Positions 9,635 to 58,279 of a stretch of 64,000 nt of DNA are shown here, one piece after another. Below the pieces are notes generated by a model, which worked only from the letters and a program-made list of their open reading frames with translations, made no database searches and had not been told where the DNA came from. The position numbers and the translations under genes were made by a program. This DNA comes from Paracoccaceae bacterium (lineage in GTDB: Bacteria; Pseudomonadota; Alphaproteobacteria; Rhodobacterales; Rhodobacteraceae), in assembly GCA_026989355.1 (NCBI GenBank), contig JALSJM010000005.1, positions 186,001 to 250,000 of the forward strand, written 5' to 3'. The number at the start of each line of letters is the position of its first letter. The first letter of the stretch is position 1.

Positions 9635-9671
9635 AAGGCGAAACACGGCAACATTCGCGCGGAGCATTCAC

Positions 9672-39693: not shown

Positions 39694-39714
39694 GGGCAGA
39701 TCTGCCCAGATTTT
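39694..39714 (+). terminator. Candidate terminator after topA
   Basis: GGGCA-GATC-TGCCC forms a short perfect hairpin followed after AGA by TTTT, 33 bp downstream of the topA stop. It would separate topA from the UPF0104-dprE operon. Confidence 0.45.
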
Positions 39715-39784
39715 GGCGCATTACTGTTCACGTTCGCGAAACAGCTTCATATTGTTGCCCGAATCTGTCGATAGATCGCGGGCA

Positions 39785-40804
39785 ATGATGATGAGCAGCG
39801 CCAAACCTGATCCCAAACCCGCCATCGCCCCGCAGCCTGCGGCGGCGCATGCGGCCGTTGAACGGCGCTGGCGCGGCATGGTTGTCCCGGGTGGGCTGTT
39901 TCTGCTGATGATCGCCGGCATCATCGCCATGGCCGCAGGTGTCGGCTGGGAAGAAACCCGCACCCAGCTTTCACGCCTTGGCTGGAGCGAGGTAACGGCA
40001 CTGCTGGCGCTTTCGCTTGTCAATTACCTGATGCGCGGCCTGCGCTGGCACCTGTTCACCCGCCGCCTCGGCCTTGGCACCGGCCTTGTGCAGGACATGC
40101 GCCATTTCCTGGGCGGATTCGCCATGAGCGTTACCCCGGGGCGGCTGGGCGAACTGGTGCGGATGCGCTGGCTCCGGCGCGAAACCGGCCGCCCCTTCGA
40201 ACAGACCGCACCCTTGGTGCTGATGGATCGCGCTGCCGATCTTGTGGCCATGGCGATGATCCTGGCCCTTGCCCTTGGCTTCGCCGCCGTGGGCATCACC
40301 GGCGCGATGCCGGTAGCTGCACTGGCGCTGGCGGGGGGCTTCGTGGCCACCCGGCCGCGGCTTCTGGGCGGGCTTGCCGATCTGGGCTATCGGCTGACAG
40401 GCCGGGCCCCCCGGCTGTTTGCCCGGGTGCGCACGGCGGCGCGTGCACTGGGGCAGTTTTCATCGCCGCAGGTGCTTGTTCCGGCCATTGCGCTTGGCCT
40501 CGTCGGCTGGGCGGCCGAAGGCTGGGCCTTCGATCTGCTGCTGGGCTGGCTCGGGGCCGAAGTGGGCTTTGCCAAGGCGCTGGCGATCTTCGTCTTTGCC
40601 ACGCTGGCCGGCGGCCTGACCGGTGCGCCCGGCGGCGTGGGCGGTGCCGAGGCGGCGATGGTCGGGCTGCTGATGCTCGAAGGGGTGCCGCTCGAGGTGA
40701 GCCTGCCGGCCACCATCATCATCCGCGTCACCACGCTGTGGTTTGCGATCGCCATCGGGCTGGTGGTGTTTCCGATCGCCGAACGCTTGTCGGGAAAGGC
40801 CTGA
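39785..40804 (+). CDS. UPF0104 / lysylphosphatidylglycerol-synthase-like membrane protein
   Basis: Multi-pass membrane protein (339 aa) of the UPF0104 family, related to the flippase half of MprF and to AglD-type proteins. A polar Pro/Ala-rich N-terminus is followed by eight or so helices, with conserved LVNYLMRGLRWHLFTRRLG, SVTPGRLGELVRMRWLRR and TGAPGGVGGAEAAMVGLLM. Only one base separates its stop from the DprE1-like gene, so they are one operon. A role in flipping the lipid-linked sugar made by the next two enzymes is plausible but only inferred from position. Confidence 0.75.
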   Translation: MMMSSAKPDPKPAIAPQPAAAHAAVERRWRGMVVPGGLFLLMIAGIIAMAAGVGWEETRTQLSRLGWSEVTALLALSLVNYLMRGLRWHLFTRRLGLGTGLVQDMRHFLGGFAMSVTPGRLGELVRMRWLRRETGRPFEQTAPLVLMDRAADLVAMAMILALALGFAAVGITGAMPVAALALAGGFVATRPRLLGGLADLGYRLTGRAPRLFARVRTAARALGQFSSPQVLVPAIALGLVGWAAEGWAFDLLLGWLGAEVGFAKALAIFVFATLAGGLTGAPGGVGGAEAAMVGLLMLEGVPLEVSLPATIIIRVTTLWFAIAIGLVVFPIAERLSGKA

Positions 40805-40805
40805 A

Positions 40806-42122
40806 ATGAACTGGAAAAGCGAAACCAATACCGGCTGGGGCCGGGTGTTGCAGGCAGAAGAAAGCGTAGCCCGCCCCGAGCGCCAGCCGACACTGGCCGC
40901 CACCCTCGGGGAAACGCCCGCGCCGGCGGCGGGGCTGCGCCGCTCATACGGTGATGCGCCGCTCAATGATGGCGGCCGGGTGATCGACATGACCCGCCTT
41001 GACCGTATCCTTGGCTTCGATCCGCAAAGCGGCGTGATCGAGGTGGAAGGCGGCTGCACCATCGGCGAACTGGCCCGCCTGTTCGCGCCACGCGGCTGGC
41101 TGCCCGCCGTGATGCCGGGCACCGGCTTTGCCACCATCGCCGGCTGCATCGCCAATGACGTGCACGGCAAGAACCACCACCACATGGGCAGTTTCGGCCA
41201 GCATGTGAAAAGCATCACCCTGATCGGCTCCGACGGCAAGCCCCGCGTGATCGGCCCACGCCGGAGCGGGGCCCTGTTCCGCGCTACCGTCGGCGGGCTG
41301 GGCCAGACCGGGGTGATTGCCTCGGCGAAGCTGCAGATGATCCCCTGCAAGGGTGACGTGATGATGGTGACCGAGCGCCGCGCCGAAAACTTCGAACAGT
41401 TCCTCGAACTGCTCGACGGTTCTTCCGCCACCTATACCGTGGGCTGGATTGACGCCACCGCGCGGGGCGAAGCGCTCGGACGTGGCATTCTGGAAGAGGG
41501 CGAAACCGGCTCCGGCCTGATGCCCCGGCCCCGGAAGGCCCGCCGGGTGCCCGTGAACGCCCCCCACTTCGCCCTGTCGAAACCGGTGGTGAGGCTGTTC
41601 AACCGCGCCTATTTCGCCCGGGTGCCTGCCCAGGGGCGCACCAGCGTCAGGCGGATCGGCCAATTCTTCTTCCCGCTCGACAGGATCCATGACTGGAACC
41701 GGCTTTACGGCCGGCGCGGTTTTCATCAGTTTCAGTGCGTGGTGCCCATTGCGGCGGCGGACACCCTGCGCGAAATGATTGAAACAATTGCGAATTCCGG
41801 CCTGGCATCGCCCCTTGCGGTTCTCAAGCGCATGGGGCCGGGGCGTGGGGGGATGCTGTCGTTTCCGATGGAAGGATATACGCTTGCGGTCGATTTCCCC
41901 AACCGCCCCCAGGCCCGTCTTCTGATCGCCCGCCTCGAAGAAATGACGGCAACGGCCGGCGGGCGGATCTATCTCGCCAAGGATTCGCTTGCAACCGGAA
42001 CACGGGTGAAGGCGATGTATGAAGAACACCCTGCCTGGAGCGCCGAAGTTGCCAAGGCCGACCCGGCAGGCCATTTCACCACCGATCTTGTCCGCCGCCT
42101 TGACCTGAGGAATCCGGCATGA
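40806..42122 (+). CDS. DprE1-like FAD-dependent decaprenylphosphoryl-ribose oxidase
   Basis: VAO-fold flavoprotein (438 aa) closely resembling mycobacterial DprE1, which oxidises the 2-OH of decaprenylphosphoryl-ribose. FAD domain: GLRRSYGDAPLNDGG, VIDMTRLDRILGFD, VMPGTGFATIAGCIANDVHG, KNHHHMGSFGQHVKS. Substrate domain: LKRMGPGRGGMLSFPMEGY, LAVDFPN, GRIYLAKDSLATG. The lysine of AKDS is 31 residues after the alanine of LAVDFP, the same distance as K418 from C387 in the M. tuberculosis enzyme, so this protein has Ala in place of that Cys. It overlaps the DprE2-like gene by ATGA. Confidence 0.88.
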   Translation: MNWKSETNTGWGRVLQAEESVARPERQPTLAATLGETPAPAAGLRRSYGDAPLNDGGRVIDMTRLDRILGFDPQSGVIEVEGGCTIGELARLFAPRGWLPAVMPGTGFATIAGCIANDVHGKNHHHMGSFGQHVKSITLIGSDGKPRVIGPRRSGALFRATVGGLGQTGVIASAKLQMIPCKGDVMMVTERRAENFEQFLELLDGSSATYTVGWIDATARGEALGRGILEEGETGSGLMPRPRKARRVPVNAPHFALSKPVVRLFNRAYFARVPAQGRTSVRRIGQFFFPLDRIHDWNRLYGRRGFHQFQCVVPIAAADTLREMIETIANSGLASPLAVLKRMGPGRGGMLSFPMEGYTLAVDFPNRPQARLLIARLEEMTATAGGRIYLAKDSLATGTRVKAMYEEHPAWSAEVAKADPAGHFTTDLVRRLDLRNPA

Positions 42123-42868
42123 ACAGCACCCGCCCCGAAACCTGGATCATTCTTGGCGCCACCTCCTCGATGGCGCGCGCCTTTGCCCGCAAGGTGGCCG
42201 AAGCGGGTGCAACCGTCATCCTTGCCGGACGCGACATCGATGACATGAAGCGCACCGCCGCCGATTGCCGGGCCCGTGGCGCCGACGCCGCCGAGGTGAT
42301 GAAATGCGATGCCCGCCGTCCCGAAACCTTTGCCCCCCTGATCGCCCGCGCGGACAGGGCCCCGGGCACCCTCAATGCCGCCGTCTTCATCGGCGCGATG
42401 CCCGCGCAGACAGAGATCGATACCGATCCCGCCCTGCTGCGCAGCGTGGTAACCGACAATTTCACCGGCCCGGCAGAATTTCTTCAGCGCCTTGCGCCCC
42501 TGCTTGAAGAACGCGGCGCAGGCACCATTGTCGGGGTCGGCTCGGTGGCCGGTGATCGCGGCCGCATCGGAAACTATGTTTACGGTGCCGCGAAGGCGGG
42601 CTTTGCAACCCATCTTTCCGGCCTGCGCAACCGCCTCGGGCGCAGCGGCGCCCATGTGCTGACCGTCAAGCCCGGCTTTGTCGATACCGCGATGACCTGG
42701 GGAATCGAGGGCATGTTCCTGGTGGCCAGCCCGGAAAAGATCGCCGACGACATCCTGAAGGCGGTACGCAGGCGGCGCAACATCCTTTATACCCCGTTCT
42801 TCTGGCGCTACATCATGGCCATCATCCGCGCCATCCCCGAACCGATCTTCAAGAAGCTTTCGGTCTGA
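42119..42868 (+). CDS. DprE2-like short-chain dehydrogenase
   Basis: NAD(P)H-dependent SDR (249 aa) expected to reduce the 2-keto intermediate made by the DprE1-like enzyme, completing ribose-to-arabinose epimerisation on a polyprenyl phosphate. The coenzyme site is IILGATSSMARAFARKVAEAG (TGxxxGxG variant), with catalytic serine in GVGSVAGDRG, the YxxxK motif YGAAK, and VKPGFVDTAMTWG. Start and DprE1-like stop overlap by four bases, as in two-subunit epimerase operons elsewhere. The reaction is inferred from its partner; SDR sequences alone do not fix substrate. Confidence 0.82.
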   Translation: MNSTRPETWIILGATSSMARAFARKVAEAGATVILAGRDIDDMKRTAADCRARGADAAEVMKCDARRPETFAPLIARADRAPGTLNAAVFIGAMPAQTEIDTDPALLRSVVTDNFTGPAEFLQRLAPLLEERGAGTIVGVGSVAGDRGRIGNYVYGAAKAGFATHLSGLRNRLGRSGAHVLTVKPGFVDTAMTWGIEGMFLVASPEKIADDILKAVRRRRNILYTPFFWRYIMAIIRAIPEPIFKKLSV

Positions 42869-43691: not shown

Positions 43692-43829
43692 GTATCCTCC
43701 TTCTGTCGGATGCGCCTCTGCCGAAAGGCCTGCATGACGCACGGGAAGAGGTTTCAATAGTTGCATGAATTGCATTTTATCGCTAGTCAGCCGGGGCCGA
43801 CCGATACGGCAACCGTTACGAGTGAACAG

Positions 43830-44573
43830 ATGCGTGTCATATTTCGGAAATTCAGACAGGATCTGAACACGCCGACGAAGAAACTTGTCTTCGTGTTCCT
43901 TACGCTTGTGGTCGGGTTTGCGGGGCCCTTCGGAACATATGTTTCCATGTCACCCCTGGAACGCCTGTTCTATTGGGGGCTGGTCATCGGTTCTTCGATC
44001 CTGCTCGTGACCGCCGTCAGGGTAGTGCTGATGCATCAGCGCCCGGGCTGGTCCTACTGGAAACTGGCGATCGCTGCTTCCTGCATCTTTGCCCTGATCT
44101 ATGCAACGCTGCTCGCCTGGGTCATCAATCCGATAACCGGCATCACGCATTACGACCACTACGGGTGGTCCTTCCTGTTCATGATGGTTCTGGTCATCGC
44201 CATTGCGGTTCACGGCATCCGCTATTTCACGATGGAAATACGCCCCCCCCGCATGCCCCGCATTCTTGAACGCCTGCCCGAAGAAAAGCGCGGCCGGATC
44301 ATCCGGCTGACGGCGCGCGATCATTTCGTCGATGTCTATACCGACAAGGGCATGTATTCGATCCGCATACGCTTTGCCGATGCGGTGAACGAAACCGAAG
44401 GGGTTGACGGAATCTGCGTTCACCGCTCGCACTGGGTTGCCATTGATGCGATCTGTGCCGCGCAGAAGGCCAACGGCAGGATTTCTCTGCTGCTGTGCGA
44501 CGGCACGGTGGTTCCCGTCAGCCGGAAATACCATTCCGAAGTCCGGTCCCGGGGGATTGTGAAAGACCCGTGA
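43830..44573 (+). CDS. Membrane-bound LytTR-type DNA-binding regulator
   Basis: Transcription factor (247 aa) with four predicted membrane helices in the first 150 residues (KKLVFVFLTLVVGFAGPFG, LFYWGLVIGSSILLVTAVRVV, LAIAASCIFALIYATLLAWV, WSFLFMMVLVIAIAVHGI). These are followed by a LytTR DNA-binding domain at the C-terminus (IRLTARDHFVDVYTDKGMY, ICVHRSHWVAIDAI, VVPVSRKYHSEVRSRG). The first ATG of the frame (43830) is taken as start; a TTG at 43761 is possible. Signal and targets are unknown. Its neighbours suggest control of the adjacent ATPase, glycosyltransferase or Tad genes. Confidence 0.8.
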   Translation: MRVIFRKFRQDLNTPTKKLVFVFLTLVVGFAGPFGTYVSMSPLERLFYWGLVIGSSILLVTAVRVVLMHQRPGWSYWKLAIAASCIFALIYATLLAWVINPITGITHYDHYGWSFLFMMVLVIAIAVHGIRYFTMEIRPPRMPRILERLPEEKRGRIIRLTARDHFVDVYTDKGMYSIRIRFADAVNETEGVDGICVHRSHWVAIDAICAAQKANGRISLLLCDGTVVPVSRKYHSEVRSRGIVKDP

Positions 44574-44631: not shown

Positions 44632-45942
44632 CTAATGCACGATGGATTCGTCCTTCACGAACATGTTCGACCAGGCCCTGTCGATCAGTTCGGGCGTCAT
44701 CTGATAGGGAATCCCTTCGAATTCACAGATCGAGATCATCTGATCGATCAGGAACACCGGCTGGTAGTTGGCATAGACATTGTCGATCGTCGGATATTTC
44801 TTCTTCAGAAGATGCACCAGCGCCTTTTCGTTCAGCGGCATCTTCTTCTTGCGGGCCACCATGGCGAATATCTTCAGGAAATCCTCCTGGTTGGGGCCGT
44901 CGATCTTGATCTTGTAGAAGATCCGGCGCAGGGCCGCCTTGTCGAAGATCTCGTTGGGGTGGAAGTTGGTCGAAAAGATCACCAGCGTGTCGAAGGGCAC
45001 TTCGAATTTTTCACCCGACTGCAGGGCAAGGATATCCTTGCCCTCTTCCAGCGGCACGATCCAGCGGTTGATCAGCGCCTGCGGGGGCTCTTCCTGGCGG
45101 CCAAGGTCGTCAACGATGAACACGCCGCCCGTGGCCTTCAGCTGCAGCGGTGCCTGATAGGTGCGCGCCGTGGGGTTGTAAACCAGATCGAGCATGGACA
45201 GCGTCAGTTCGCCGCCAGTGATCACCGTGGGCCGGTCGCACAGCACATAGCGGGAGTCGAAGCGGTTGGCGGTGCGGCGCAGGCTGGTGGGATCTTCCTC
45301 CTGTTCTTCGGCGGCCGAATGCACGATCGGATCATAGACGGTAATCACCTGGCCCGCGTATTCAATGGCGCGCGGCACATAGATCTTGTCGCCCAGGGCA
45401 TCGCGGATACCGTTCGAAATCGACGACTTGCCGTTCCCCGGCGGACCATACATCAGGATCGACCGCCCCGCACCCACCGCGGGGCCGAGATGATCGAGCA
45501 ACGCGTCAGGCAGGATCAGGTGCCCCATCGCATCTGTCAGCTGTTCGCGGGTGATCTTGATGTTGCGGATCGACTGGCGCTTCACCTGTTCGCTGTAAAC
45601 TTCGAGCGGCACCGGCATCGCGCCGTAATATTCCGATTGCGAAAGCGCATCTAGCGCGCGCGCCTTGCCCGCGTCGGTCAGTTCATAACCCATTTCGCCA
45701 CCCGAATTGGCATGCAGCGTGCCGGTGGCCTGCAGCAGCTTCTGGCTGCGGGCAAGATCGATCAGTTCCTGGGCAACCGGAATCGGCAGACAGATTGCCC
45801 TGGAAATTTCCCCCACCGCCTGAAGGTTCTTGCGAAAGATCGTCTTCAGCAGCAGATCGCGCATCATCACGACCGGCAGCCGCATTTCCTCAAGCGAGCG
45901 CGGCGCCGGCGGCGCCATGACATTGACGACGGGCATGTTCAT
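44632..45942 (-). CDS. AAA+ ATPase of unknown role beside Tad locus
   Basis: Cytosolic P-loop ATPase (436 aa). The N-terminal 140 residues resemble winged-helix folding (LLLKTIFRKNLQAVGEISRAI). The ATPase core has Walker A GPPGNGKSSISNGIR, Walker B GGVFIVDDLGRQ, a sensor-1-like LVIFSTNFHPNEIFD, and an arginine-rich ALRRIFYKIKIDG. The lid domain follows to the end. I recall such proteins beside Tad/Flp genes in Rhodobacterales, but no function has been assigned to my knowledge. It is transcribed divergently from the GT-C protein across a spacer with two inverted repeats. Confidence 0.8.
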   Translation of the reverse strand: MNMPVVNVMAPPAPRSLEEMRLPVVMMRDLLLKTIFRKNLQAVGEISRAICLPIPVAQELIDLARSQKLLQATGTLHANSGGEMGYELTDAGKARALDALSQSEYYGAMPVPLEVYSEQVKRQSIRNIKITREQLTDAMGHLILPDALLDHLGPAVGAGRSILMYGPPGNGKSSISNGIRDALGDKIYVPRAIEYAGQVITVYDPIVHSAAEEQEEDPTSLRRTANRFDSRYVLCDRPTVITGGELTLSMLDLVYNPTARTYQAPLQLKATGGVFIVDDLGRQEEPPQALINRWIVPLEEGKDILALQSGEKFEVPFDTLVIFSTNFHPNEIFDKAALRRIFYKIKIDGPNQEDFLKIFAMVARKKKMPLNEKALVHLLKKKYPTIDNVYANYQPVFLIDQMISICEFEGIPYQMTPELIDRAWSNMFVKDESIVH

Positions 45943-45976
45943 CAGCTTGCCTTTCCCTTGTCCTCATCTCGTCAAA

Positions 45977-45996
45977 CCTGTCGCCCATACGACAGG
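45977..45996. promoter_or_regulatory. Inverted repeat in the ATPase/GT-C spacer (left)
   Basis: CCTGTCG-CCCATA-CGACAGG is a perfect 7+6+7 palindrome 35 bp upstream of the ATPase start. It could be an operator for the divergent pair or an RNA hairpin in the ATPase leader. Confidence 0.35.
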
Positions 45997-46014
45997 GACA
46001 GAACCAGTATCGAA

Positions 46015-46030
46015 AATCCCACGCGGGATT
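46015..46030. promoter_or_regulatory. Inverted repeat in the ATPase/GT-C spacer (right)
   Basis: AATCCC-ACGC-GGGATT is a perfect 6+4+6 palindrome in the same 184-bp divergent spacer, 97 bp upstream of the glycosyltransferase start. Confidence 0.3.
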
Positions 46031-46126
46031 CGAAGAAACAATAGAAACGAATTTTGGCTTTTGCATGGCGACATGGGAACGGTTATGTTGCGAGGAAAAA
46101 CAGAAAACAACCCGAACGAGGCACCG

Positions 46127-47776
46127 ATGAGCAGCAGTGTCAGCCCATTGCGTCTGTTTTCCTTTCTCGCGTTGTCGCTGCTGATTCTGGGCGCAACGGC
46201 GGCCCTGCGGGGCGGCCTGATGATCGACGGGCACGAGGGCGATACCCTGCACCTGATCGAGATCCTGCTGCGGATCGACGCCGGAGAGTGGCCGCACAAG
46301 GATTTCATGACACCGATCGGCATTCTGGCCTTTGCCCCGATCAACCTGTTCATGAAACTGGGCAACGGGATCGGCGCGGCCTTCATCCATGCCAACATTC
46401 TTGTGGCCGCGCTGCTGCTGCCCATGCTCTGGTGGGCCACATGGAGCCGCCTGCGCGGGGGGATGGCCTATCTTCTTGGCTTTTATGTCATCGTACTGGT
46501 CATGGCGCTGGTCTATGGTGGCGCTTCCCCGACAATCGCCGTTTCGATGCATTACAACCGCTGGGCCTGGGGTATTGCCCATGTTGCCGTGCTGCTGGCC
46601 GTATTGCCGCCGCACAACCATGCGCGCCCGGTGCTTGACGGGGTGCTGATCGGCCTGTCACTGGCCGCGCTGGCCCTGATCAAGGTAACCTATTTCCTGG
46701 CCCTCGCCCCGGTGCTGGCGCTGGCGCTGGCGCTTCGCAAATGCTGGCGCGGCCTGCTTTCCGGCCTGATTGCCGGCCTCGCCGTTGCCGCTTTCATGAC
46801 CTTTCTGGCCGGCCCCGGATACTGGTTGGCCTACATGAACGATCTTCTGGTGGTTTCGCAATCTCAGGTGCGCCCCGAACCGGGCCATGCCTTTACCGAC
46901 ATACTTTCGGCACCCGAGTTCGTTGCCGGAACCGCCCTGATGCTGCTGGCCGTCGTCCTGCTGCGCCAGATCGGATGCAAATACGAAGGCCTGCTGCTGC
47001 TGCTGCTGCTGCCGGGCTTTGCCTATATCACCTATCAGAACTTCGGCAACGACCCCCAGTGGCTGCTGCTGTTTGCGGCGCTGCTGTTTGCCTTTCGCCC
47101 CGCAAGTGGCACCGCAAACCGCTGGGGATGGGATGCGCACAGCCTGTTCAACCTTGCCATTGCCGCGGTTCTGGCCCTGAGCTCGGCCTCGTTCTTCAAC
47201 ATGGCCACAAGCCCCTTCCGGCTGCTGGCCAAGGAGCGCGGCGAATACACGCCGCTTCTGGGCAGGAACAGCCCCCATGACGACATATTGATGCGCAAGG
47301 AACGCGTTCTGCCCGTTGTCGGCAGGACAACCCTTGAAATCCCCGGTCTTGATCTGGCGCTTTACGGTGTCGAGGATTCCGGAAGCGGGAACGGCAAGGA
47401 CGAAACCGCCACCCTGATGGGCGAGGTGCTGCAGGATTGCGAACTGGAGGGCGGCCTTGAAATCTGGCTGACCGCCATGACCCGCGATATCGAACAGGCC
47501 GGCCTGGCCCGGAACAAGCGCATTCTGGCCGCCGATCTGATTTCCAGCCACTGGCTGTTCAGTCGCCAGCTTCTGCCGCTGCGGGGCGGCGCGCCGTGGT
47601 ATTACGGCGGCCTTCCCGGCATCGAAAGCGCCGATTACCTTCTGGTGCCTCAATGCCCGCTGCTGCGCCGGGCCCGCAGGATGATCCTTGAAGAAATCGA
47701 CAAGGCAGACCAGATCACCCTGCGCGAACTGCGGCGCACCTCCTATTACATCCTGCTCGAGATCCGCCGCGAATAG
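46127..47776 (+). CDS. Putative GT-C membrane glycosyltransferase
   Basis: Large membrane protein (549 aa). About ten or eleven helices lie in the first 380 residues, followed by a soluble C-terminal part of about 170 residues. After the first helix comes a loop with acidic residues and a histidine (MIDGHEGDTLHLIEILLRID), then PHKDFMTPIG. This is the place where GT-C enzymes using polyprenyl-phosphate sugars carry their catalytic acids. No exact family was recognised. The start at 46127 has GAGG upstream; an ATG at 46085 is possible. Its neighbours (Tad locus; polyprenyl-pentose genes on both sides) suggest an arabinosyl- or ribosyl-transferase, which is an inference. Confidence 0.6.
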   Translation: MSSSVSPLRLFSFLALSLLILGATAALRGGLMIDGHEGDTLHLIEILLRIDAGEWPHKDFMTPIGILAFAPINLFMKLGNGIGAAFIHANILVAALLLPMLWWATWSRLRGGMAYLLGFYVIVLVMALVYGGASPTIAVSMHYNRWAWGIAHVAVLLAVLPPHNHARPVLDGVLIGLSLAALALIKVTYFLALAPVLALALALRKCWRGLLSGLIAGLAVAAFMTFLAGPGYWLAYMNDLLVVSQSQVRPEPGHAFTDILSAPEFVAGTALMLLAVVLLRQIGCKYEGLLLLLLLPGFAYITYQNFGNDPQWLLLFAALLFAFRPASGTANRWGWDAHSLFNLAIAAVLALSSASFFNMATSPFRLLAKERGEYTPLLGRNSPHDDILMRKERVLPVVGRTTLEIPGLDLALYGVEDSGSGNGKDETATLMGEVLQDCELEGGLEIWLTAMTRDIEQAGLARNKRILAADLISSHWLFSRQLLPLRGGAPWYYGGLPGIESADYLLVPQCPLLRRARRMILEEIDKADQITLRELRRTSYYILLEIRRE

Positions 47777-47818: not shown

Positions 47819-48346
47819 TCAGCCGCCGGACAGCGGCGTTCCGACACCGTAACGAACGACCATGACAAGATAAAAGACCAGCACACTGCCAAGGGCAAGG
47901 CCCATGGGGAAATCCTTGGTATCCCAGGATTCCCAGCCTTCGGTCATGCGGCGAAAGGCTTTCGAACTCTGGAACAGGCGATGCGTGAGAAAAGCCGCGA
48001 TCAGAACGGCGGCGAAGAACAGCATCATCTCCAATGCGTCCTCGCGGGCGATGAAGGGGGCCATCGCCGCGGCGAATTTCGCATCGCCCGCACCGATCAA
48101 CCGCGCCATGTTCAGAACGAAGCCGATCACCAGCACCACCACCAGGTGCAGCAGCCGCCACAGGTAATCGTCAAGCGGCAGGGCGATCGGCCCCACCACC
48201 AGATAGACCCCCGTCAGCGCCAGCACCGCGGCATTGGGAATCTTCAGATATTTCATGTCGCTCCAGGCGGCCCAGATGCAGATCGGAAGCACGAAGGGCA
48301 GAAACCACAGCGCGGCCGTAGCCGGGGTTACAAGTGCCGGTTCCAT
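47819..48346 (-). CDS. cpaA: Prepilin peptidase of the Tad system (CpaA/TadV)
   Basis: Inner-membrane aspartic protease (175 aa) that removes the leader peptide of Flp prepilins. The short form lacks the methyltransferase domain of PilD. Both catalytic aspartates are visible: in AAWSDMKYLKIPN and in the GxGD motif of LIGAGDAKF. Five to six helices are predicted. It is the last gene of the leftward tad series, one base after the TPR lipoprotein gene, and convergent with the GT-C gene. Confidence 0.9.
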   Translation of the reverse strand: MEPALVTPATAALWFLPFVLPICIWAAWSDMKYLKIPNAAVLALTGVYLVVGPIALPLDDYLWRLLHLVVVLVIGFVLNMARLIGAGDAKFAAAMAPFIAREDALEMMLFFAAVLIAAFLTHRLFQSSKAFRRMTEGWESWDTKDFPMGLALGSVLVFYLVMVVRYGVGTPLSGG

Positions 48347-48347
48347 G

Positions 48348-49205
48348 TCAGTTCGTCACATTTGCTTCCAGCGCCCGCAGCGAACGGGCCGCGGCCTCGA
48401 AATGCTGCGGATGCGTATCGATCGCTTCCTTCAGCAGGCCCTTGCCGATCGAGACATCGCCCTGCTTGATGGCGGTCAGCGCCAGGGTGTAAAGCAGCTC
48501 GGCCCGTTCGGTCTGGGTCATCGGGACGACCGGCAACTGATAGTTGCGTTGCGCGCCGCGGGCCAGAACCATGTTGTTCTTGGCCGTGAACAGGCTCTTG
48601 TCATAGGTCAGCGCCTGGGCAAACAGCTTTTCGGCGGCTTTGTAATCACCGCGCGCAAGCTTGGAATAGCCCCAGTTGTTGTAAACCCCGGCGGGTCTGG
48701 TGGTCAGCCCCACGGCCGTTTCATAGAAACTGTCGGCTTTCTTCCATTCCTTGTTGCTGTCGGCAATCATCGCCTCGAGCCGGTAGCGCTGATAGGTTTC
48801 GTGGGTCGGGGGGATCTGATCAAGCACTGCCTCGGCTTCTTTCCAGTTGCCGTTGCGGATCAGGGCATCGGCCCATTGGACCCTGTCTTCATTGGTGCCC
48901 TCGGGGCTGGAGACAACCGCTTCCCACACCTTCGTGGCTTCGGGATACATCTTGGCGCGGATCAGCGAAATCGCCAGCCCGCGTTTCAGATCGATCCGGT
49001 CCGGGTTGTCGGTCGATGCACGGCGGAAATAGGCCACGGCCTCTTTCGGATCGCCTACCGTCAGCATGATATCGTTGAGGTTGGTTTCGTCGATCGCGTT
49101 CACGCCCTTGACGGCACGCGCGACGGACGCCTTGTTGTTGTTTTCACAGCCTGTCAGGATGACTGCGCCGGACAGGCACAGCGAAATTATGATCTTCTGG
49201 CGCAT
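48348..49205 (-). CDS. tadD: TPR-repeat lipoprotein, TadD-like
   Basis: Predicted lipoprotein (285 aa). The signal peptide ends in the lipobox LTGC (Cys at about 20). It is followed by several tetratricopeptide repeats (AVAYFRRASTDNPDRIDLKRG, KEAEAVLDQIPPTHETYQRYR, VYNNWGYSKLARGDYKAAEKL). TadD-type proteins act as pilotins or assembly factors for the Tad secretin complex. It lies between the second TPR lipoprotein gene and cpaA. Which of the two TPR proteins is the true TadD cannot be decided here. Confidence 0.82.
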   Translation of the reverse strand: MRQKIIISLCLSGAVILTGCENNNKASVARAVKGVNAIDETNLNDIMLTVGDPKEAVAYFRRASTDNPDRIDLKRGLAISLIRAKMYPEATKVWEAVVSSPEGTNEDRVQWADALIRNGNWKEAEAVLDQIPPTHETYQRYRLEAMIADSNKEWKKADSFYETAVGLTTRPAGVYNNWGYSKLARGDYKAAEKLFAQALTYDKSLFTAKNNMVLARGAQRNYQLPVVPMTQTERAELLYTLALTAIKQGDVSIGKGLLKEAIDTHPQHFEAAARSLRALEANVTN

Positions 49206-49235
49206 TCTTGCGTCCTTTTTTCTGCTCGGTCCCCG

Positions 49236-49802
49236 TCATGGCGTGGCCAGCAGCAGATATTTCCCGCCACCGCGCCGCACCAGGACAAACTTGCTTTCCT
49301 CTGGCGCATCATATGCGGTTTTGCGGGTTTTTTCGATAGCAAGGCGCAGATTATCGCGGATCGAGTCACTTTGGCCACTGTCAAGGGCATAGGCGCGCTT
49401 GAAAACTTCCATCGCCTCGGCGGTATTGCCGCGCTCCATCAGCACCACGCCAAGGTTGTTCCAGGCGGCGGGGAATTCCGGATCCTTCATGACGGCCTGC
49501 CGCAATATCCGCTCGGCCTGCCCAAGGCGCCCCAGGCGCAGGTTGGCCGAACCGATGGCGCTGAGCACATCGGCCGTCATGCCCTGCCGGGCTGCCGCGC
49601 GGTAATAGGCCTTGAGGGCAAGCTCGTATTCTCCGGCTGCCATGAGCCGGTGGCCGACCAGCAGCCCGTCAACCCCGCCCTCCCGTGTTGCGGCTGTGCC
49701 CGGTGCATAGGGGTTGCCCTTCTTCAGGCCCGGGCCGCCCGCCGGCTGGCAGGCGGCCAGCAAGACCGTTGCCGCGATGATCCCCACCCATTTTCTGCCC
49801 AT
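49236..49802 (-). CDS. Second TPR-repeat lipoprotein of the Tad locus
   Basis: Predicted lipoprotein (188 aa) with lipobox LLAAC at the end of a short signal peptide. Three tetratricopeptide repeats follow (AAGEYELALKAYYRAAARQG, SANLRLGRLGQAERILRQAV, NNLGVVLMERGNTAEAMEVF), then a tail ending VRRGGGKYLLLATP. It begins two bases after tadC ends. Pairs of TPR lipoproteins at this place are usual in Tad loci of related bacteria. Likely role: assembly or stability of the outer-membrane pore. Confidence 0.8.
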   Translation of the reverse strand: MGRKWVGIIAATVLLAACQPAGGPGLKKGNPYAPGTAATREGGVDGLLVGHRLMAAGEYELALKAYYRAAARQGMTADVLSAIGSANLRLGRLGQAERILRQAVMKDPEFPAAWNNLGVVLMERGNTAEAMEVFKRAYALDSGQSDSIRDNLRLAIEKTRKTAYDAPEESKFVLVRRGGGKYLLLATP

Positions 49803-49804
49803 GG

Positions 49805-50788
49805 CTAGATGCCGAGTTGCTTGAATGTCTGCGCGATTCCGTAAACCGAAGGACCAAGCAGGATGATCAGCAGCGGCGGAACCGTCAGCATCATGGTGGC
49901 AAGAGTCATCTTGGTTGGCAAGGTGTTTGCCTTTTCCTCAGCCCGCATCACCCGCTTGTCGCGCATCTCGGATGCATAAACCCGAAGCGCATCGGCGATC
50001 GAAGTGCCGAAGGTAGAGGACTGGATCAGAACGGTGACAAAGCTTGCCACGTCATCAACCCCGGTGCGTTCCGACATGTCGCGCAGCACGGCGGTGCGGT
50101 CCTTGCCGGCCTTCATCTCGTTGGCGACGGTTTCGAATTCATCGGCCAGATCGGGAAAGCCGGCGCGAATCTCGCGCGCCACGCGGATGATCGCCTGATC
50201 AAGCGACTGCCCCGCCTCGACGCAGACCAGCATCATGTCCAGCGCATCGGGGAAACCGTTGGTGATGGCCTCGATCCGTGCCTCGCGCCGCCGCGTCACC
50301 CAGTATTTCGGCCCCATATAGCCGACCAGGCCCGGAATCATCACGGTCAGCATCAGGTTGGTGGTCGTCGGCTCTCCGTTGGCCATCTTGACGATTGCCC
50401 AGATGCTGCCGAAGATCAGGCCGATAATGCCCAGCGCAAACTGCAGGAAATGGAAGGTGCGCACCGCGGTCTTGCTGCGGTATCCTGCCTGCAGCAGCTT
50501 CAGGCGAATGGCGGAATATTCCTCTTCATCCTGGGGCTCCAGAAAGTTGGAATATTTCTCCAGCTTGTCCTTCTTGTTGTCAAAACGCAGCGTGGCGCCC
50601 TTTTCCTTGGGCAACCGGCTGCCGGCCTGCGCCTTGCGCAGCTTGTCCAGAGGGTCTTCCTCCTTCTTCAGAAGCACGGGCAGGGTGAGCAGGATCAGGA
50701 ACATGCCCAGTACCCCGACCGCCAGCAAGGGGCCGAAGGGGCCGAAGCTGTCTGTCAGAAACGTGTTGATACGGCCGAAGAATTCCAT
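49805..50788 (-). CDS. tadC: Tad pilus inner-membrane protein TadC
   Basis: GspF-like platform protein (327 aa) that with TadB forms the inner-membrane base on which the ATPase CpaF works. It has an N-terminal helix (FGPLLAVGVLGMFLILLTLPVLL), a cytosolic part and two GspF/T2SSF segments. Those include DALDMMLVCVEAGQSLDQAI and the EEKANTLPTKMTLATMMLTVPPLL-type C-terminus. Nine bases separate it from tadB. Confidence 0.92.
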   Translation of the reverse strand: MEFFGRINTFLTDSFGPFGPLLAVGVLGMFLILLTLPVLLKKEEDPLDKLRKAQAGSRLPKEKGATLRFDNKKDKLEKYSNFLEPQDEEEYSAIRLKLLQAGYRSKTAVRTFHFLQFALGIIGLIFGSIWAIVKMANGEPTTTNLMLTVMIPGLVGYMGPKYWVTRRREARIEAITNGFPDALDMMLVCVEAGQSLDQAIIRVAREIRAGFPDLADEFETVANEMKAGKDRTAVLRDMSERTGVDDVASFVTVLIQSSTFGTSIADALRVYASEMRDKRVMRAEEKANTLPTKMTLATMMLTVPPLLIILLGPSVYGIAQTFKQLGI

Positions 50789-50797
50789 CTTGTCCCC

Positions 50798-51766
50798 CTA
50801 GACCTTGATGTTCACGAGCGCCCGCATGACGAACATGTTGGCAATCAGGAAGGCCGCCACGATCAGCGCCGCCGGAATGAAGGCCGATGTTTCCTGCACA
50901 TCCTTGTAATAATCGGGCTCGATCAGGTTGATGCCGATCAGGGCCACGATCGGAAAGCCCGACAGGAACATGCCCGACCATTTTGCCTCGGCGGTGATCG
51001 CCTTGACACGGCGGAACAGCTTGAAGCGGGCCCGGATCACCTTGGCCAGGCCGTCAAGGATCTCGGCCAGGTTGCCGCCCGATGTCTGCTGGATCGAAAC
51101 CGCAACCGCAAGAAAGCGCAGATCCTGCATGTCAAGGCGTTCGGCCATGGCTTTCAGCGCCTCGCCCACGTCGCGGCCATAGGCGGCCTCGTCGGCGATC
51201 ACGCCCATTTCCGTGCCCAGAGGATCGGGAACCTCCTTGGCGACGATCTGGATCGCCGAGGTAAACGGATGCCCCACCCTGAGCGAGCGCACCATCAGCT
51301 CCACCGCATCCGGAAGCTGTTCCTCGATCATGGCAAGGCGCTTCTTGGCCTTCTTGTTGATCCAGTGATAGACGCCCCCGACCCCCATCACGACCGAAAT
51401 CAGCAGGCGCACCGGCAGCGAGGCACTGGTGCCCACGGTCAGCCCGACGAAGGAAAACATCCCGAGCATCACCATCAGCAGGATCAGCTGGTTGGGTGAA
51501 AAGGCGATATTGGCCTTCTGCGCCTTGTTGGCGAGGATCGAATAGATCGGAATCGACCGCGCCCGCATGTGCTGGCTCATCTCCTTGCGGAGCTGTTCCA
51601 GCACCTGTTCGCGGCCCATGCCCTTTTCAAGCATCTCGAGGCGGCGGTTCACCCGGTTGTTGAGGCTGATCGACTTGCCGAAGACAGTCAGGTATATACC
51701 CTCGACCAGCAGCAGGACCGCCACGAAGATCAGGCCATAGACGATAAGCTCGGTGTTGAACGTCAT
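50798..51766 (-). CDS. tadB: Tad pilus inner-membrane protein TadB
   Basis: GspF-like platform protein (322 aa), partner of TadC. Features: first helix YGLIFVAVLLLVEGIYLTVFG, then LPDAVELMVRSLRVGHPFTSAI and MQDLRFLAVAVSIQQTSGGNLAEIL, the conserved T2SSF blocks, with final helices near KWSGMFLSGFPIVALIGINL. It begins five bases after cpaF ends. Confidence 0.92.
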   Translation of the reverse strand: MTFNTELIVYGLIFVAVLLLVEGIYLTVFGKSISLNNRVNRRLEMLEKGMGREQVLEQLRKEMSQHMRARSIPIYSILANKAQKANIAFSPNQLILLMVMLGMFSFVGLTVGTSASLPVRLLISVVMGVGGVYHWINKKAKKRLAMIEEQLPDAVELMVRSLRVGHPFTSAIQIVAKEVPDPLGTEMGVIADEAAYGRDVGEALKAMAERLDMQDLRFLAVAVSIQQTSGGNLAEILDGLAKVIRARFKLFRRVKAITAEAKWSGMFLSGFPIVALIGINLIEPDYYKDVQETSAFIPAALIVAAFLIANMFVMRALVNIKV

Positions 51767-51771
51767 GGCAT

Positions 51772-53208
<1,437 letters not shown>

Positions 53209-53288
53209 TATGCTAGCCTCTTGTTACAACAAACGCATAAACACGATGCATCACCTTTCATGGCAGCCGCGTCAGCAGCTTCATCCGC

Positions 53289-54536
53289 TCACTTGTCACC
53301 CGCAGCCTCGGAAACATTCAGTTCGTGCACCGAATGCGCCAGCTTCTGGATTTCCTTGCGCAGCGGGTTCTTGGGCGATGTTTCGGCCAGCGGCAGCCCG
53401 TGATCCCCGGCCTGCAGCACCTGCTTGCCGCCATCGGGCAGAAGCACCTCGATCTTGATGTCAAGGCTCTCGGCCAGGCGCTTGACACGCGACTTGCCGC
53501 TGAGATCGGTGAACTTCGGCGCCCGGTTCAACAGATAGCGCAGCTTGTTGAAGGGCAGATCCTCGCCCTTCAGCGCACGGATCAGCCGCAGCGTATTCTG
53601 GGCCGAGCGCATGTCAAGTTCGAGCGTCGCGAAATAGACATGCGCCTCGTTCAGAACCACCTCGGTCCAGCTGACCAGGGTCGAGGGCATGTCGATGATC
53701 ACGTAATCGAAGTTCAGGCGGGCCTTTTCGATGATCCGGGCGATGTCTTCGGATGTCAGCAGATCAAGCGGCAGCATTTCCGCAGGCGATGTCAGCACAT
53801 GCAGCTTTTCATTGAAGGTCAGAAGCGCCTGCATGAAAGCTTCGCTGTCCATCGATTCGGTGTCGGAAAGCAGTTCATAGACCGCCTCGCGCCGGGGCAG
53901 ATCAAGATAGGTTGCAACCGTGCCGAACTGCAGATCAAGATCGATCAGACAGACCCGCGGCGGGTTGTCCTTGTCGATATTCGCCAGCTCCCAGGCCAGG
54001 TTCACCGCATAGGTGGTGGCGCCGGTACCGCCGGCCAGCCCGTGCACGGCCATCACCACGGCATCGTGGTTGTTTGTGGCCTTGAGCGCGGTCTGCTGCC
54101 CCGCATTTTCCAGTTTTTCGGTGGCAGGGGCCGCGCGCAGGCGCTCGATGGCCTGGTGCAGCTCGCCCTCGGGCAGGGGATAGGGCACGAAATCATCGGC
54201 CCCGAGGCGCAGCAGCTGATGCAGGGCAATGGGACTTACTTCCTCGGCAATGAGGATGACCTTGATACCCTTTTCCTTGGCGATCCTGATCAGTTCGCCG
54301 ATCTTCGGAAGCTCGGCCTCGTCCTTGTCGTCAACCGCGATGGCAACGAATTCAAGATGCTCGGCCTCGGGCTGGTTCAGGAAAACCCTGGCATCCTGAA
54401 ACGAAAGATCGCCCCAGCTTTCGCCAAGCTCGGCCTCCATGTCGTCGATCAGCAGATCGAAATTCTGCACGTCACGCGAAATCGTGCAGGCCACGATCGG
54501 TGACGGTTCTGGCTGCAACATTGCATTACTCGCCAT
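53289..54536 (-). CDS. cpaE: Tad localisation ATPase CpaE/TadZ
   Basis: MinD/ParA-like protein (415 aa) that places the Tad machine at its site, often a cell pole. A receiver-like N-terminal domain (about residues 10-140) lacks a clear phosphorylation site. The ATPase domain has the atypical P-loop HGLAGGTGATTYAVNLAWEL without the usual signature lysines, as known for TadZ proteins. It continues with CLIDLDLQFGTVATYLDLP and YVIIDMPSTLVSWTEVVL. The start at 54536 is preferred: AAGGA lies ten bases upstream. In-frame ATGs at 54554 and 54632 are alternatives. Confidence 0.9.
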   Translation of the reverse strand: MASNAMLQPEPSPIVACTISRDVQNFDLLIDDMEAELGESWGDLSFQDARVFLNQPEAEHLEFVAIAVDDKDEAELPKIGELIRIAKEKGIKVILIAEEVSPIALHQLLRLGADDFVPYPLPEGELHQAIERLRAAPATEKLENAGQQTALKATNNHDAVVMAVHGLAGGTGATTYAVNLAWELANIDKDNPPRVCLIDLDLQFGTVATYLDLPRREAVYELLSDTESMDSEAFMQALLTFNEKLHVLTSPAEMLPLDLLTSEDIARIIEKARLNFDYVIIDMPSTLVSWTEVVLNEAHVYFATLELDMRSAQNTLRLIRALKGEDLPFNKLRYLLNRAPKFTDLSGKSRVKRLAESLDIKIEVLLPDGGKQVLQAGDHGLPLAETSPKNPLRKEIQKLAHSVHELNVSEAAGDK

Positions 54537-54756
54537 AGCCAATACATCCTTCATCTCTGATGACAACGGCGGGACCTGCCGGCGCTGTCGCCTTTCGGTG
54601 AGCAGCCGCAGACCGCCATCATCTGCACACAACGGTATTGTCGTGTGAATACTTCCCTTACCGCATGAAGGTGGCCTGAAATCTTGGCAACATTAGGGCC
54701 AAAAAGCCGTAATTATTCGGTATCGTGCGACGATCCCTGCCGTTTCCGCTTTCCCG

Positions 54757-55398
54757 TCACTGACCGGTGTTGGCATATACCGGCTCTTCGGTTGCACTGC
54801 TGACATATTCCCTGAAGACGATATCAGCGTATTTTCCGTTCATTACCAGCGGGTTGTTCTTCACGAAGCCAGAAACTTCCGTCACCGTCCGGCGATTCCG
54901 GCGCTCGCGGCCCTCGGTCACGACCAGCGGCTGCGTTTCCCCGTAGGAAACAACCGCCTCCAGCCGCTTGCGGCTGATTCCCTGCCGCGTCAGGTAATTC
55001 ACCACAGCCTGGGCCCGGCGCATGCCGAGTCGCTTGTTATAGGCGTTCGTCCCCACCTTGTCGGTATGTCCATAAACGCGGAACCGCACTTCGGGGAACT
55101 GACGGATCCAGTCGGCCTGCTGGCGCAGGGCCGCCTTGGCATTCTCGTCAAGGCGCGCGCTGTCGAAATCGAAGGTGACCATCGAGGGCACTTCCCGGGC
55201 AAAACGCTGCGCCAGGTTGATCGTGTAATCCCGTGCGCCGCTCTGAACCAGCATGTTGTTCATGGTCGGGTTGCCGAAGCTGCCTTCGTCAAGATCGCTG
55301 CCCGCTTCGGAACGGAACTTGCTTGCCGCATCCGGGGTGCAGGCGGAAAGCGCGGCCACGGCAGCCAGGATCGCGATCGGTTTCATGTTAGCGCGCAT
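54757..55398 (-). CDS. OmpA-family lipoprotein of the Tad locus
   Basis: Predicted outer-membrane lipoprotein (213 aa) with lipobox LSAC and a C-terminal OmpA domain that binds peptidoglycan. Key parts: VTFDFDSARLDENAKAAL, RVYGHTDKVGTNAYNKRLGMRRA, and GRERRNRRTVTEVSG. It lies four bases after the secretin gene, the place where cpaD/rcpB is found in other Tad loci, so it may fix the secretin to the cell wall. Family assignment is good; the Tad role is inferred. 220 bp separate it from cpaE. Confidence 0.85.
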   Translation of the reverse strand: MRANMKPIAILAAVAALSACTPDAASKFRSEAGSDLDEGSFGNPTMNNMLVQSGARDYTINLAQRFAREVPSMVTFDFDSARLDENAKAALRQQADWIRQFPEVRFRVYGHTDKVGTNAYNKRLGMRRAQAVVNYLTRQGISRKRLEAVVSYGETQPLVVTEGRERRNRRTVTEVSGFVKNNPLVMNGKYADIVFREYVSSATEEPVYANTGQ

Positions 55399-55402
55399 AG
55401 CC

Positions 55403-56803
55403 TTACTCCATCACATAGCCGTAGGAACCGGTGAAATCCTGGCGGGCCACTTCTCCGGCCGCTCCGCGCAGGCGGGGCTTGCCTGCCACCTCGCCCGAAA
55501 GGAACAGTTCGCTCTCGGAAGGCGGGCGGACCCGGTCGGTGGGCAGGGCCAGGGCCTCGCCACGTGTCGGAGTCACCAGATGCGGGGTCACGATGATCAC
55601 CAGTTCGCTCTGATCCCGGCGGTAATTCGTGCTGCGGAACAGCGCACCCAGAACCGGCAGGTCTCCCAGCCACGGGATCTGGTTGACCTGGTCGCGGAAA
55701 TCATCCTGCAGCAGCCCGGCAATGGCAAAGCTCTGGCCATCGCGCATCTCGACGGTTGTCGAGGTCTTGCGGGTGCGGAAGGCTGGCACCGAGAAGGTGT
55801 CGCCGACCAGGAAGGAATTGGTGGTGTCGATCCCCGAAACCTCGGCCTCCATCTTGAGATTGATGATGTCACCCTCGATCACCCGTGGCGTGAACTTCAT
55901 CAGAACACCGAATTCCTTCCATTCCACGGTGATGGTGTTGTTTTCCTGAGCAACCGGGATCGGCACTTCGCCACCGGCAAGGAACTGGGCTTCCTGCCCG
56001 GAAAGGGCGGTCAGGTTGGGTTCGGCCAGGGTGCGCACCAGACCCTTCGTTTCAAGAGCCTCAAGCAGCACGCCAAACTGCACCGAACCGATGGTGAAAC
56101 CAAGGCGCGTGGCACCCGAAATTCCCGGGCGGGTGGTGACCACGGGGTTGTTCACAGCATTGGCGCCGCTCAGCCAGGTGCCGCCTTCATGCTGCACATC
56201 GTTGCCGGCGATGCCGAAAGAGGTGGAAAGCTCCTTGACCACCGAGCGCTGAACCTCGGCAAAACGCACCTTCAGCATCACCTGCTGGGTGCCGCCAACG
56301 CTCATCAGGTTCGAAACCCGGTCAGGTGCATAGCGCTTGGCAAGGTCAAGCGCGCGATCAAGCTTGGCGATGCTCGACACGGTGCCGGAAAGCACGATGC
56401 CATCATTGGCGGTGCGCACCTCGATCTGTTCGCCCGGCAGGATCTGGCGCAGGCGCTCCTTGAACTCGGCGATATCAGGGGTGACATGCACCTCTACATT
56501 GGTGATCAGCCGGCCGTCGGCCCCCAGCAGCGTCAGCGTGGTGCGCCCCGGCGTCTTGCCCAGCACATAGATGGTGCGATCGGACAGGGTTGAAATATCG
56601 GCAATTTCGGGATTGGCGATCGACAGTTCCGTGAAGGGTTCTTCGCTTTCCACGACAACCGCACGGCTCATCGAAACCTTGAGTGCGGCCGAAGGTGCGC
56701 CCCGCATCACCTTGATCGTTTCAGCGCCCGCAATCGTCGGAACCGCTGTTACACACACGGCAAAACCCAGAAGGGCCGCCTTCAGAAACCTGCTCATATT
56801 CAT
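55403..56803 (-). CDS. cpaC: Tad outer-membrane secretin CpaC/RcpA
   Basis: Forms the outer-membrane channel for the Flp pilus (466 aa). A signal peptide (FLKAALLGFAVCVTAVPTIAGA) precedes the N-terminal pilus-assembly domain (VVVESEEPFTELSIANPEIAD, IYVLGKTPGRTTLTLLG). A BON/N1-type domain follows (EVRTANDGIVLSGTVSSIAKL), then the secretin domain (VRTLAEPNLTALSGQEAQFLAG, VPIPVAQENNTITVEWKEFGV, ELVIIVTPHLVTP). AGGATCACC before the ATG at 56803 decides the start. Confidence 0.94.
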   Translation of the reverse strand: MNMSRFLKAALLGFAVCVTAVPTIAGAETIKVMRGAPSAALKVSMSRAVVVESEEPFTELSIANPEIADISTLSDRTIYVLGKTPGRTTLTLLGADGRLITNVEVHVTPDIAEFKERLRQILPGEQIEVRTANDGIVLSGTVSSIAKLDRALDLAKRYAPDRVSNLMSVGGTQQVMLKVRFAEVQRSVVKELSTSFGIAGNDVQHEGGTWLSGANAVNNPVVTTRPGISGATRLGFTIGSVQFGVLLEALETKGLVRTLAEPNLTALSGQEAQFLAGGEVPIPVAQENNTITVEWKEFGVLMKFTPRVIEGDIINLKMEAEVSGIDTTNSFLVGDTFSVPAFRTRKTSTTVEMRDGQSFAIAGLLQDDFRDQVNQIPWLGDLPVLGALFRSTNYRRDQSELVIIVTPHLVTPTRGEALALPTDRVRPPSESELFLSGEVAGKPRLRGAAGEVARQDFTGSYGYVME

Positions 56804-57040
56804 GGTGATCCTGCCTCTCTGACCACAGTGATGGATACGGATCTCGATGCCCGTTTGGACAGCACCATGCCGGAAACTGTATTTTATTGCAAGAATCAAC
56901 AGATTGCGGACCACAAGTCATGTGGATAACCGGCAACACCACACAAATTGTAGCGAACGGCAGAAAGCGCGCACCCACATACGGGCATGCGCACCTCTGT
57001 CAGTTTTCACGGAAAATCACGCCTTGCGCCCGGGCCCGTC
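56804..57040. other. 237-bp spacer between cpaB and cpaC
   Basis: These two genes usually abut. The spacer has no coding sequence. It holds an imperfect GC hairpin near the cpaB end (GCGCACCC with GGGCATGCGC, about 56969-56992) and an AT-richer patch at 56877-56912 that could contain a separate promoter for cpaC. No clear -35/-10 pair was found. Confidence 0.3.
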
Positions 57041-58099: not shown

Positions 58100-58279
58100 T
58101 CAATCCACACTGACGCTGTCGATGAAGGTTGCGATCTCACTGGATTTCGCAACCGATGCCTGACGAAGCGGAATGGCGGCGGCCACGCCGAACAGCACGA
58201 TCCCTGCGGTTATCACCACCCAGTCAACAGTTACCGCCGCGCTTTCGTCCCGGGCGAACCGTTTCACCATACCCAACAT
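58100..58279 (-). CDS. Divergent Flp-type pilin (flp1)
   Basis: A 59-residue prepilin starting MLGMVKRFARDESAAVTVDW, with a hydrophobic stem VVITAGIVLFGVAAAIPL and a polar end ATFIDSVSVD. It shares the layout DES-x-AVTVDWVV with the two main pilins but has Ala instead of Gly just before the predicted cleavage site. Its C-terminal half is different (RQASVAKSSEIATF). GGAG lies eight bases before the ATG. It is transcribed towards cpaB and could be a minor pilin or a specialised second pilin. Confidence 0.75.
   Translation of the reverse strand: MLGMVKRFARDESAAVTVDWVVITAGIVLFGVAAAIPLRQASVAKSSEIATFIDSVSVD

Follow-up and report, generated by a model that had tools for sequence, protein, structure and literature searches.

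A candidate D-arabinofuranosylation system for Tad (type IVc) pili in Rhodobacteraceae, comprising a GT-C protein family, HAD-UbiA, DprE1/E2 and a YbhN-type flippase

According to passages of PMC11127046, lipid-linked pentofuranose systems consist of a PRPP-dependent UbiA enzyme with an HAD phosphatase, an epimerase, a flippase and a GT-C glycosyltransferase, and homologues of DprE1 and DprE2 accompany those systems whose sugar is arabinofuranose (Araf). The same passages define GT-C enzymes by 7-13 membrane helices and an outer domain that follows helix 1 (PMC11127046). In Pseudomonas, TfpW puts D-Araf on the type IVa pilin, and the effect described in parts of two papers is protection against phages (PMC11841053, PMC12369383). 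The tad cluster is presented, in passages of PMC8383342, as the defining feature of presumed diatom-colonising Rhodobacterales; a word search of that text on Rhodobacterales Tad genes gave no glycosyl, decaprenyl, UbiA or arabin. A passage of a Tad structure paper implicates RcpC in Flp glycosylation (PMC12307814), the passages of PMC7762298 and PMC7643831 contain nothing on Tad pilus sugars, and the open-licence literature searched yielded no report of arabinosylated Tad pili. Here we describe a locus whose GT-C enzyme may be an arabinosyltransferase that puts D-Araf on a component of the Tad pilus, probably the Flp pilin, a reading to which we give a probability of roughly 0.55. For this locus we computed the fold class, the conserved acids, the homology of the pathway enzymes, the gene linkage and the joint presence and absence of the genes. 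The chances are about even that its GT-C family, HAD-UbiA, DprE1/E2 and YbhN-type flippase make up a previously unrecorded system by which Rhodobacteraceae arabinofuranosylate their Tad (type IVc) pili with D-Araf, the genes around one tad locus being retained or lost together; the GT-C family would then be new, a word that refers to comparison with published descriptions of TfpW and GT136 (ORF12).

The window, that is, the whole stretch of DNA analysed, comprises 64,000 nucleotides of a Paracoccaceae bacterium (GenBank assembly GCA_026989355.1, contig JALSJM010000005.1, positions 186,001 to 250,000 of the forward strand). The gene under study occupies 46127-47776 on the plus strand and encodes a membrane protein of 549 aa, assigned the GT-C fold from its ORF, its relatives and an AlphaFold model. 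Its frame is open from 45830 to 47776 (+), and the start taken here, the ATG at 46127, agrees with the relatives, whose full-length alignments begin at residues 3-17. Because relatives are encoded in 71 of the 248 genomes of the family (70 at E ≤ 1e-66, the last, G139, at 3e-18), the ORF is not a chance frame. As the sequence-only reading of this DNA had described, the gene is divergent to an AAA+ ATPase gene (44632-45942, minus strand) and convergent to the prepilin peptidase gene cpaA (47819-48346, minus strand; Peptidase_A24 E = 3e-10). That reading had recognised no named family, and this was borne out: the window protein gave no match above cut-off against Pfam, NCBIfam or PDB sequences, and neither did a profile of 55 relatives against PDB sequences. 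The Emb and Aft families are absent from the Pfam matches up to an E of 1 and from the PDB-sequence matches up to an E of 10, and PADLOC returned no match to the protein. Two families were rejected as too weak, namely DUF6804 (E 0.04) and GT87 (PF09594), which 7 of the 55 members match at E ≤ 1 (best 3e-4) and the window protein does not match.

The AlphaFold model, built from 55 sequences (pLDDT 90.1, pTM 0.90), begins with helix 1, after which come an outer loop of 55 residues that includes a helix (residues 37-51), ten further membrane helices and, lying by helix count on the outer (periplasmic) side, the C-terminal domain (189 residues). Its total of about 11 membrane helices, and the size and outside position of its C-terminal domain, are in line with the ten or so helices and the soluble C-terminal domain proposed earlier from the letters. 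When the model was compared with solved structures by VIA-align, rows 1-37 were all GT-C enzymes, with Z from 13.0 to 7.1, a count that takes in three rows of a GPI-transamidase subunit, which we take to be GT-C-like. Pmt4 (Z 13.0), AftA (Z 12.7 over 401 residues) and ArnT (Z 12.5 over 368, the alignment spanning model residues 15-548) head the list, and AglB, OST, AftD, PglB and ALG6 are among the other GT-C rows, down to Emb, the last of the 37 (Z 7.1). Among the other arabinosyltransferases, AftD scores Z 10.7 and AftB Z 6.7. Since Z values below about 13 may be due to chance for helical bundles, our GT-C call rests on the consistency of many rows and not on any single Z. Foldseek also places proteins of the GT-C kind in rows 1-11, the best E being only 4.9e-3, led by AftA, AftD, ArnT, the GPI-transamidase subunit, ALG3, AftB and DPY19. 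A protein with many membrane helices might instead have the fold of a transporter or of an O-antigen polymerase or ligase, the case that had been named beforehand as speaking against a GT-C enzyme, and transporters do follow in the Foldseek list, at probabilities of 0.12 or less. This is not what the structure searches gave; the top rows of both Foldseek and VIA-align are GT-C and invariant acids follow helix 1, so that we consider this alternative highly improbable and reject a transporter fold on the two comparisons.

The first outer loop carries the motif DGHEGDTLH (46226-46252, plus strand; residues 34-42), already singled out in the sequence-only reading for its acidic and His residues. 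E37 and D39 of this motif are invariant in the alignment of the protein with its relatives (55 sequences), as are H57 and D59 further along the loop and R108, R145, K186, W233, D239, R249, N308 and D309 elsewhere; in a wider set (n = 20 sequences), E37 and D39 are kept in at least 90%. Of the two, D39 is our candidate for the catalytic base. The C-terminal domain (47207-47773, plus strand; residues 361-549), predicted to be periplasmic, has two cysteines, C438 and C510, conserved in at least 90% of the 55 sequences. In a separate VIA-align comparison it shows weak similarity to the corresponding domains of DPY19, AglB and AftD (Z from 5.2 down to 4.7); Foldseek found nothing for it at E ≤ 0.001, and no carbohydrate-binding module was seen in the VIA list, absence from which excludes nothing. 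With 11 helices and a 55-residue first outer loop in the model, conserved acids in that loop (E37, D39 and D59 in the 55 sequences) and a match to solved GT-C enzymes in VIA-align rows 1-37 and Foldseek rows 1-11, the modelled protein is almost certainly a GT-C glycosyltransferase. The class had been proposed as GT-C-like before any comparison of structures, and the comparison then recommended, now carried out, has GT-C enzymes leading both lists.

All three arabinose-lipid genes, DprE1, DprE2 and HAD-UbiA, are present in the window. On the upstream side of the GT-C gene lie, on the plus strand, a gene for a flippase-like protein of the YbhN / LPG_synthase_TM kind, our candidate flippase (39713-40804; the frame opens at 39713 and the start is not settled), a homologue of DprE1, the polyprenylphosphoryl-ribose oxidase (40806-42122; frame open from 40743), and a short-chain reductase that is DprE2-like by homology (42119-42868). 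A minus-strand enoyl-CoA hydratase gene separates the latter from a plus-strand gene (43761-44573) whose DNA-binding product has a LytTR domain and, apparently, a membrane part; the LytTR gene adjoins the locus in some relatives too. The AAA+ gene is a constant neighbour in genomes with the GT-C gene (carriers) and without it (non-carriers) alike, and we therefore place it outside the module. Its product is 62-91% identical in most mapped regions, has no Pfam match over cut-off and is weakly similar to the defence-system protein IetA. On the other side, cpaA is followed by the tad assembly genes (48348-57877, minus strand), presumably tadD, a second TPR gene, tadC, tadB, tadA, tadZ, cpaD, cpaC and cpaB, labels that we give by position and usual gene order; cpaB and tadZ were identified by Pfam. 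Beyond them are three minus-strand pilin genes, a third, Flp-like one at 58100-58279 and two Flp genes at 58527-58706 and 58960-59139, the last being our candidate acceptor. These two encode the same protein and have near-identical flanks, by the look of it a recent tandem duplication. A lytic transglycosylase gene (SLT; 59501-60376, plus strand) likewise stays next to the tad locus whether or not the GT-C gene is present. It is followed on the same strand by a gene for an HAD-UbiA fusion (60369-61817; frame open from 60339), a candidate polyprenyl-phosphate phosphoribosyltransferase and 5'-phosphatase.

The DprE1 of the window aligns along its length with mycobacterial DprE1 (E 1e-73) and keeps the NHH and AKDS motifs. 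Since neither DprE1 (380 of 500 bits) nor DprE2 (162 of 250 bits) reaches its NCBI equivalog cut-off, we call both homologues and not certified equivalents. Benzothiazinones attack a cysteine of mycobacterial DprE1; in our alignment, the window protein has Ala at that position. The HAD-UbiA protein scores above the NCBIfam cut-off for PRK08238, and its best solved relative in the PDB is decaprenyl-phosphate phosphoribosyltransferase (2e-29). There are two other UbiA proteins in the genome, which are taken to be CtaB and the ubiquinone enzyme.

To compare the layout of the locus across genomes, we used the proteins of the window as tblastn queries against 114 regions, the window among them. Of these, 96 contain cpaA as well as the AAA+ gene, 58 from carriers and 38 from non-carriers, and these were counted; the other 18 were left out. 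On the carrier side the regions represent 62 of the 71 carriers and one genome, G002, from a set of 61 related genomes, whereas the non-carriers are 40 genomes hand-picked, not at random, from the TadA matches (140 non-carriers have TadA), 38 of which show both genes. In every counted carrier region (58 of 58) the interval from cpaA to the AAA+ gene holds the GT-C gene; no non-carrier region has it there (0 of 38), and in all 38 of the latter the gap between the two neighbours is 31-288 bp. One of the 58, that of G090, has an inverted tad segment, which puts the GT-C gene about 12 kb from cpaA; in two further carriers, retrieved once the counting was finished (G188 and G185), the gene occupies this slot too, and in G096 it adjoins the AAA+ gene on one contig, with cpaA on another. 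In another region (G203, L247) two adjacent GT-C genes occupy the interval. The usual carrier order is YbhN, DprE1, DprE2, HAD-UbiA (reversed), transglycosylase, Flp, tad, cpaA, GT-C (reversed) and AAA+; in the window and one relative (L083) the DprE genes are on the AAA+ side instead. Of 45 carrier regions with both the transglycosylase gene and cpaB, 43 have DprE1 and DprE2 beside the locus, 32 of these with HAD-UbiA as well; one of the remaining two has HAD-UbiA alone and the other has none. Conversely, DprE1, DprE2 and HAD-UbiA are missing from 32 of 32 non-carrier regions with the transglycosylase gene and cpaB, one of which keeps YbhN. The sequence-only reading was thus right about the GT-C class and the gene orientation; the linkage to arabinose-lipid genes and the association with the entire tad locus escaped it.

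Joint presence and absence were scored over the 248 genomes of the family, with limits for the class-I enzymes set after the lists had been seen (DprE1 at E < 1e-100, leaving out the borderline G180; HAD-UbiA at an identity of at least 47%). Within these limits, 62 genomes have both GT-C and class-I DprE1, 9 GT-C only, 2 DprE1 only and 175 neither. The corresponding counts are 51, 20, 1 and 176 for class-I HAD-UbiA and 59, 12, 4 and 173 for YbhN. TadA occurs with GT-C in 69 genomes and alone in 140, GT-C without TadA in 2, and neither in 37; because TadA is present in 69 of 71 carriers and also in 140 of 177 others, we regard the module as an optional addition to a widespread pilus. On a quick tree of pilus proteins (TadA, TadB and TadC of 97 genomes, 57 of them carriers; LG+G4, SH-aLRT only), which cannot separate gain from loss, the distribution of GT-C calls for 10 changes or more, and strongly supported branches force 7 of these. 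In independent pairs on supported branches, DprE1 changes in the same direction as GT-C in an average of 5.7 of 7 and never in the opposite one (p median 0.03, range 0.03-0.13). The two genomes with class-I DprE1 and no GT-C gene (G001 and G148) also lack TadA, a pattern that fits joint loss or an assembly gap.

These data bear on which pentose is transferred. Citrobacter ORF12, in passages of PMC11127046, takes Ribf or Xylf, and nine carriers do not have class-I DprE1; the sugar that the GT-C enzyme brings to the pilus could be a different lipid-linked pentose (ribose, or some other epimer), and the DprE pair would then serve to make something else. We find this rather improbable, given that class-I DprE1 is present in 62 of the 71 carriers and that the DprE pair adjoins the locus in 43 of the 45 carrier regions with the transglycosylase gene and cpaB. 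Moreover, four of the nine others (G138, G196, G218 and G231) have a second DprE1 type and in G096 DprE1 is cut by a contig end; G022, G129, G139 and G249 have neither type, and in G129 the GT-C gene is on a 5.8-kb contig without other locus genes. The second DprE1 type, 40-43% identical to that of the window, adjoins a second HAD-UbiA type in G128, G225, G248, G138, G231 and others, and the pair occurs also in genomes without a GT-C gene; it probably belongs to another pentofuranose system. Counting against the arabinose-lipid reading, class-I HAD-UbiA is absent from 20 of the 71 carriers, 11 of which have a relative of 35-43% identity elsewhere and 9 none at E ≤ 1e-50. Five of these 9 (G106, G177, G184, G186 and G243) keep DprE1, DprE2, GT-C and tad genes; the regions of G106, G177, G243, G184 and G186 are L063, L198, L199, L200 and L209/L210, respectively. 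In each of G177 and G243, no more than two UbiA-type proteins are present. A UbiA replacement was sought beside topA/YbhN in L073, L199 and L210, and the genes there resemble, by eye, CoA-transferase subunits.

Returning to D-arabinose as the sugar, we propose the following route. HAD-UbiA would transfer phosphoribosyl from PRPP onto polyprenyl phosphate and then remove the 5'-phosphate; DprE1 and DprE2 would oxidise and then reduce C2, giving polyprenyl-phosphate-D-arabinofuranose, and YbhN, or another flippase, would flip this lipid to the outer face. There the GT-C enzyme, residing in the inner membrane and acting in the periplasm with an acid of the first outer loop, probably D39, as base, would transfer D-Araf onto a hydroxyl group in some component of the Tad pilus; a Ser or Thr of the small Flp pilin, before its assembly, would be the most likely site. 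We infer the reaction, flippase, sugar, acceptor and sites from the data above, and one or several residues might be added. GT-C enzymes draw on polyprenyl- or dolichyl-linked sugars, and here the strong linkage to the DprE1/E2 and UbiA genes makes polyprenyl-P-D-Araf a likely donor. The position of the gene mildly favours a Tad pilin as acceptor, though a different Tad protein may take that role. The same enzyme and donor could instead serve a surface polysaccharide, lipopolysaccharide or another envelope molecule, the place beside tad reflecting shared regulation or a chance insertion. Known GT-C pentofuranose transferases do act on polysaccharides, as passages of PMC11127046 describe, and one carrier (G143) keeps the GT-C gene with most of the tad locus gone, apparently through a deletion that runs from DprE2 to within tadD. 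We nevertheless think an envelope target unlikely: the place in the tad neighbourhood is kept in every counted carrier region, TadA is commoner in carriers than in the other genomes, and the C-terminal domain matches no carbohydrate-binding module in a search that excludes nothing.

The pilin sequences were compared for signs of an acceptor site. Ser or Thr is commoner in the pilins of carriers (48 genomes) than of non-carriers (36 genomes) at the C-terminal columns 39 (36 versus 7), 46 (29 versus 11) and 50 (31 versus 7), and Thr at column 31 occurs in 34 carriers versus 7 non-carriers. Tests of these columns on independent pairs were not significant (best median p 0.25). With relatedness uncontrolled, the Ser/Thr fraction is 0.311 in carriers versus 0.256 in non-carriers (p 0.004), and the acidic fraction 7.7% versus 13.1% (p 1e-5). 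Relatedness can explain such differences, and we keep the pilin columns as a lead only and name no acceptor site from them.

Relatives of the GT-C protein, mostly 31-56% identical to it, occur also in 12 of the 61 related genomes. When a profile was run against 240 genomes from across the class, it matched the genome of the window itself and, distantly and in part, G314 (E 5e-17). Scanning named genomes for a sequence pattern gave 344 coding places, 80 of which were kept; the names on these 80 are genera and groups that we take to belong to Rhodobacterales, or broader alphaproteobacterial names, and include Marivivens, Octadecabacter, Tropicimonas, Loktanella and Aliiroseovarius. Judged from these sequence searches, the family seems nearly confined to one bacterial family. 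Speaking against a fixed tie to the pilus, the relative in G249, G139 and G314 stands away from tad and DprE genes; the coordinates of distant relatives so placed are 8933-10555 (-) of region L256, 8905-10698 (-) of L255 and about 9400-10200 (+) of L261.

Should the proposed function be true, it would give a role to a nameless enzyme family, extend the chemistry of DprE1/E2 to a further class of pilus and point to members of the YbhN family as flippases for pentose-carrying lipids. By analogy with TfpW, a sugar coat would hide the pilus from phages or tune adhesion, and a coat that is switched on or off among Tad pili would bear on phage resistance and host attachment.

How the locus stands to described systems can be summarised as follows. 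It shares with ArnT, the Ara4N transferase to lipid A, the fold, the size and a C-terminal domain, but the donor genes nearby are different and we found no sequence match. With mycobacterial AftA, AftB, AftD and Emb it has in common the fold and the same kind of donor pathway, although there is no sequence match to the solved chains and no Pfam match, and the organisms belong to another group. To our knowledge, no galactan is to be expected here. The three-component systems of Citrobacter ORF12 (GT136), as passages of PMC11127046 describe them, share with our locus an HAD-UbiA synthase and a GT-C enzyme; their flippase is of the MATE type, whereas our candidate flippase is of the YbhN type, and they lie in an O-antigen locus and not beside a pilus locus. 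ORF12 has a C-terminal carbohydrate-binding module, whereas the best matches of the C-terminal domain described here are GT-C C-terminal domains (Z ≤ 5.2). The TfpW system resembles ours in a pilus-linked GT-C gene, in DprE/UbiA-type arabinose-lipid genes in the genome and in being an optional module (passages of PMC11841053, PMC12369383 and PMC11127046). Here, in contrast, the pilus is of the Tad/Flp kind, the HAD phosphatase is fused to UbiA and the transferase gene neighbours cpaA of the Tad locus and not pilA, for which reason we do not file the protein as TfpW.
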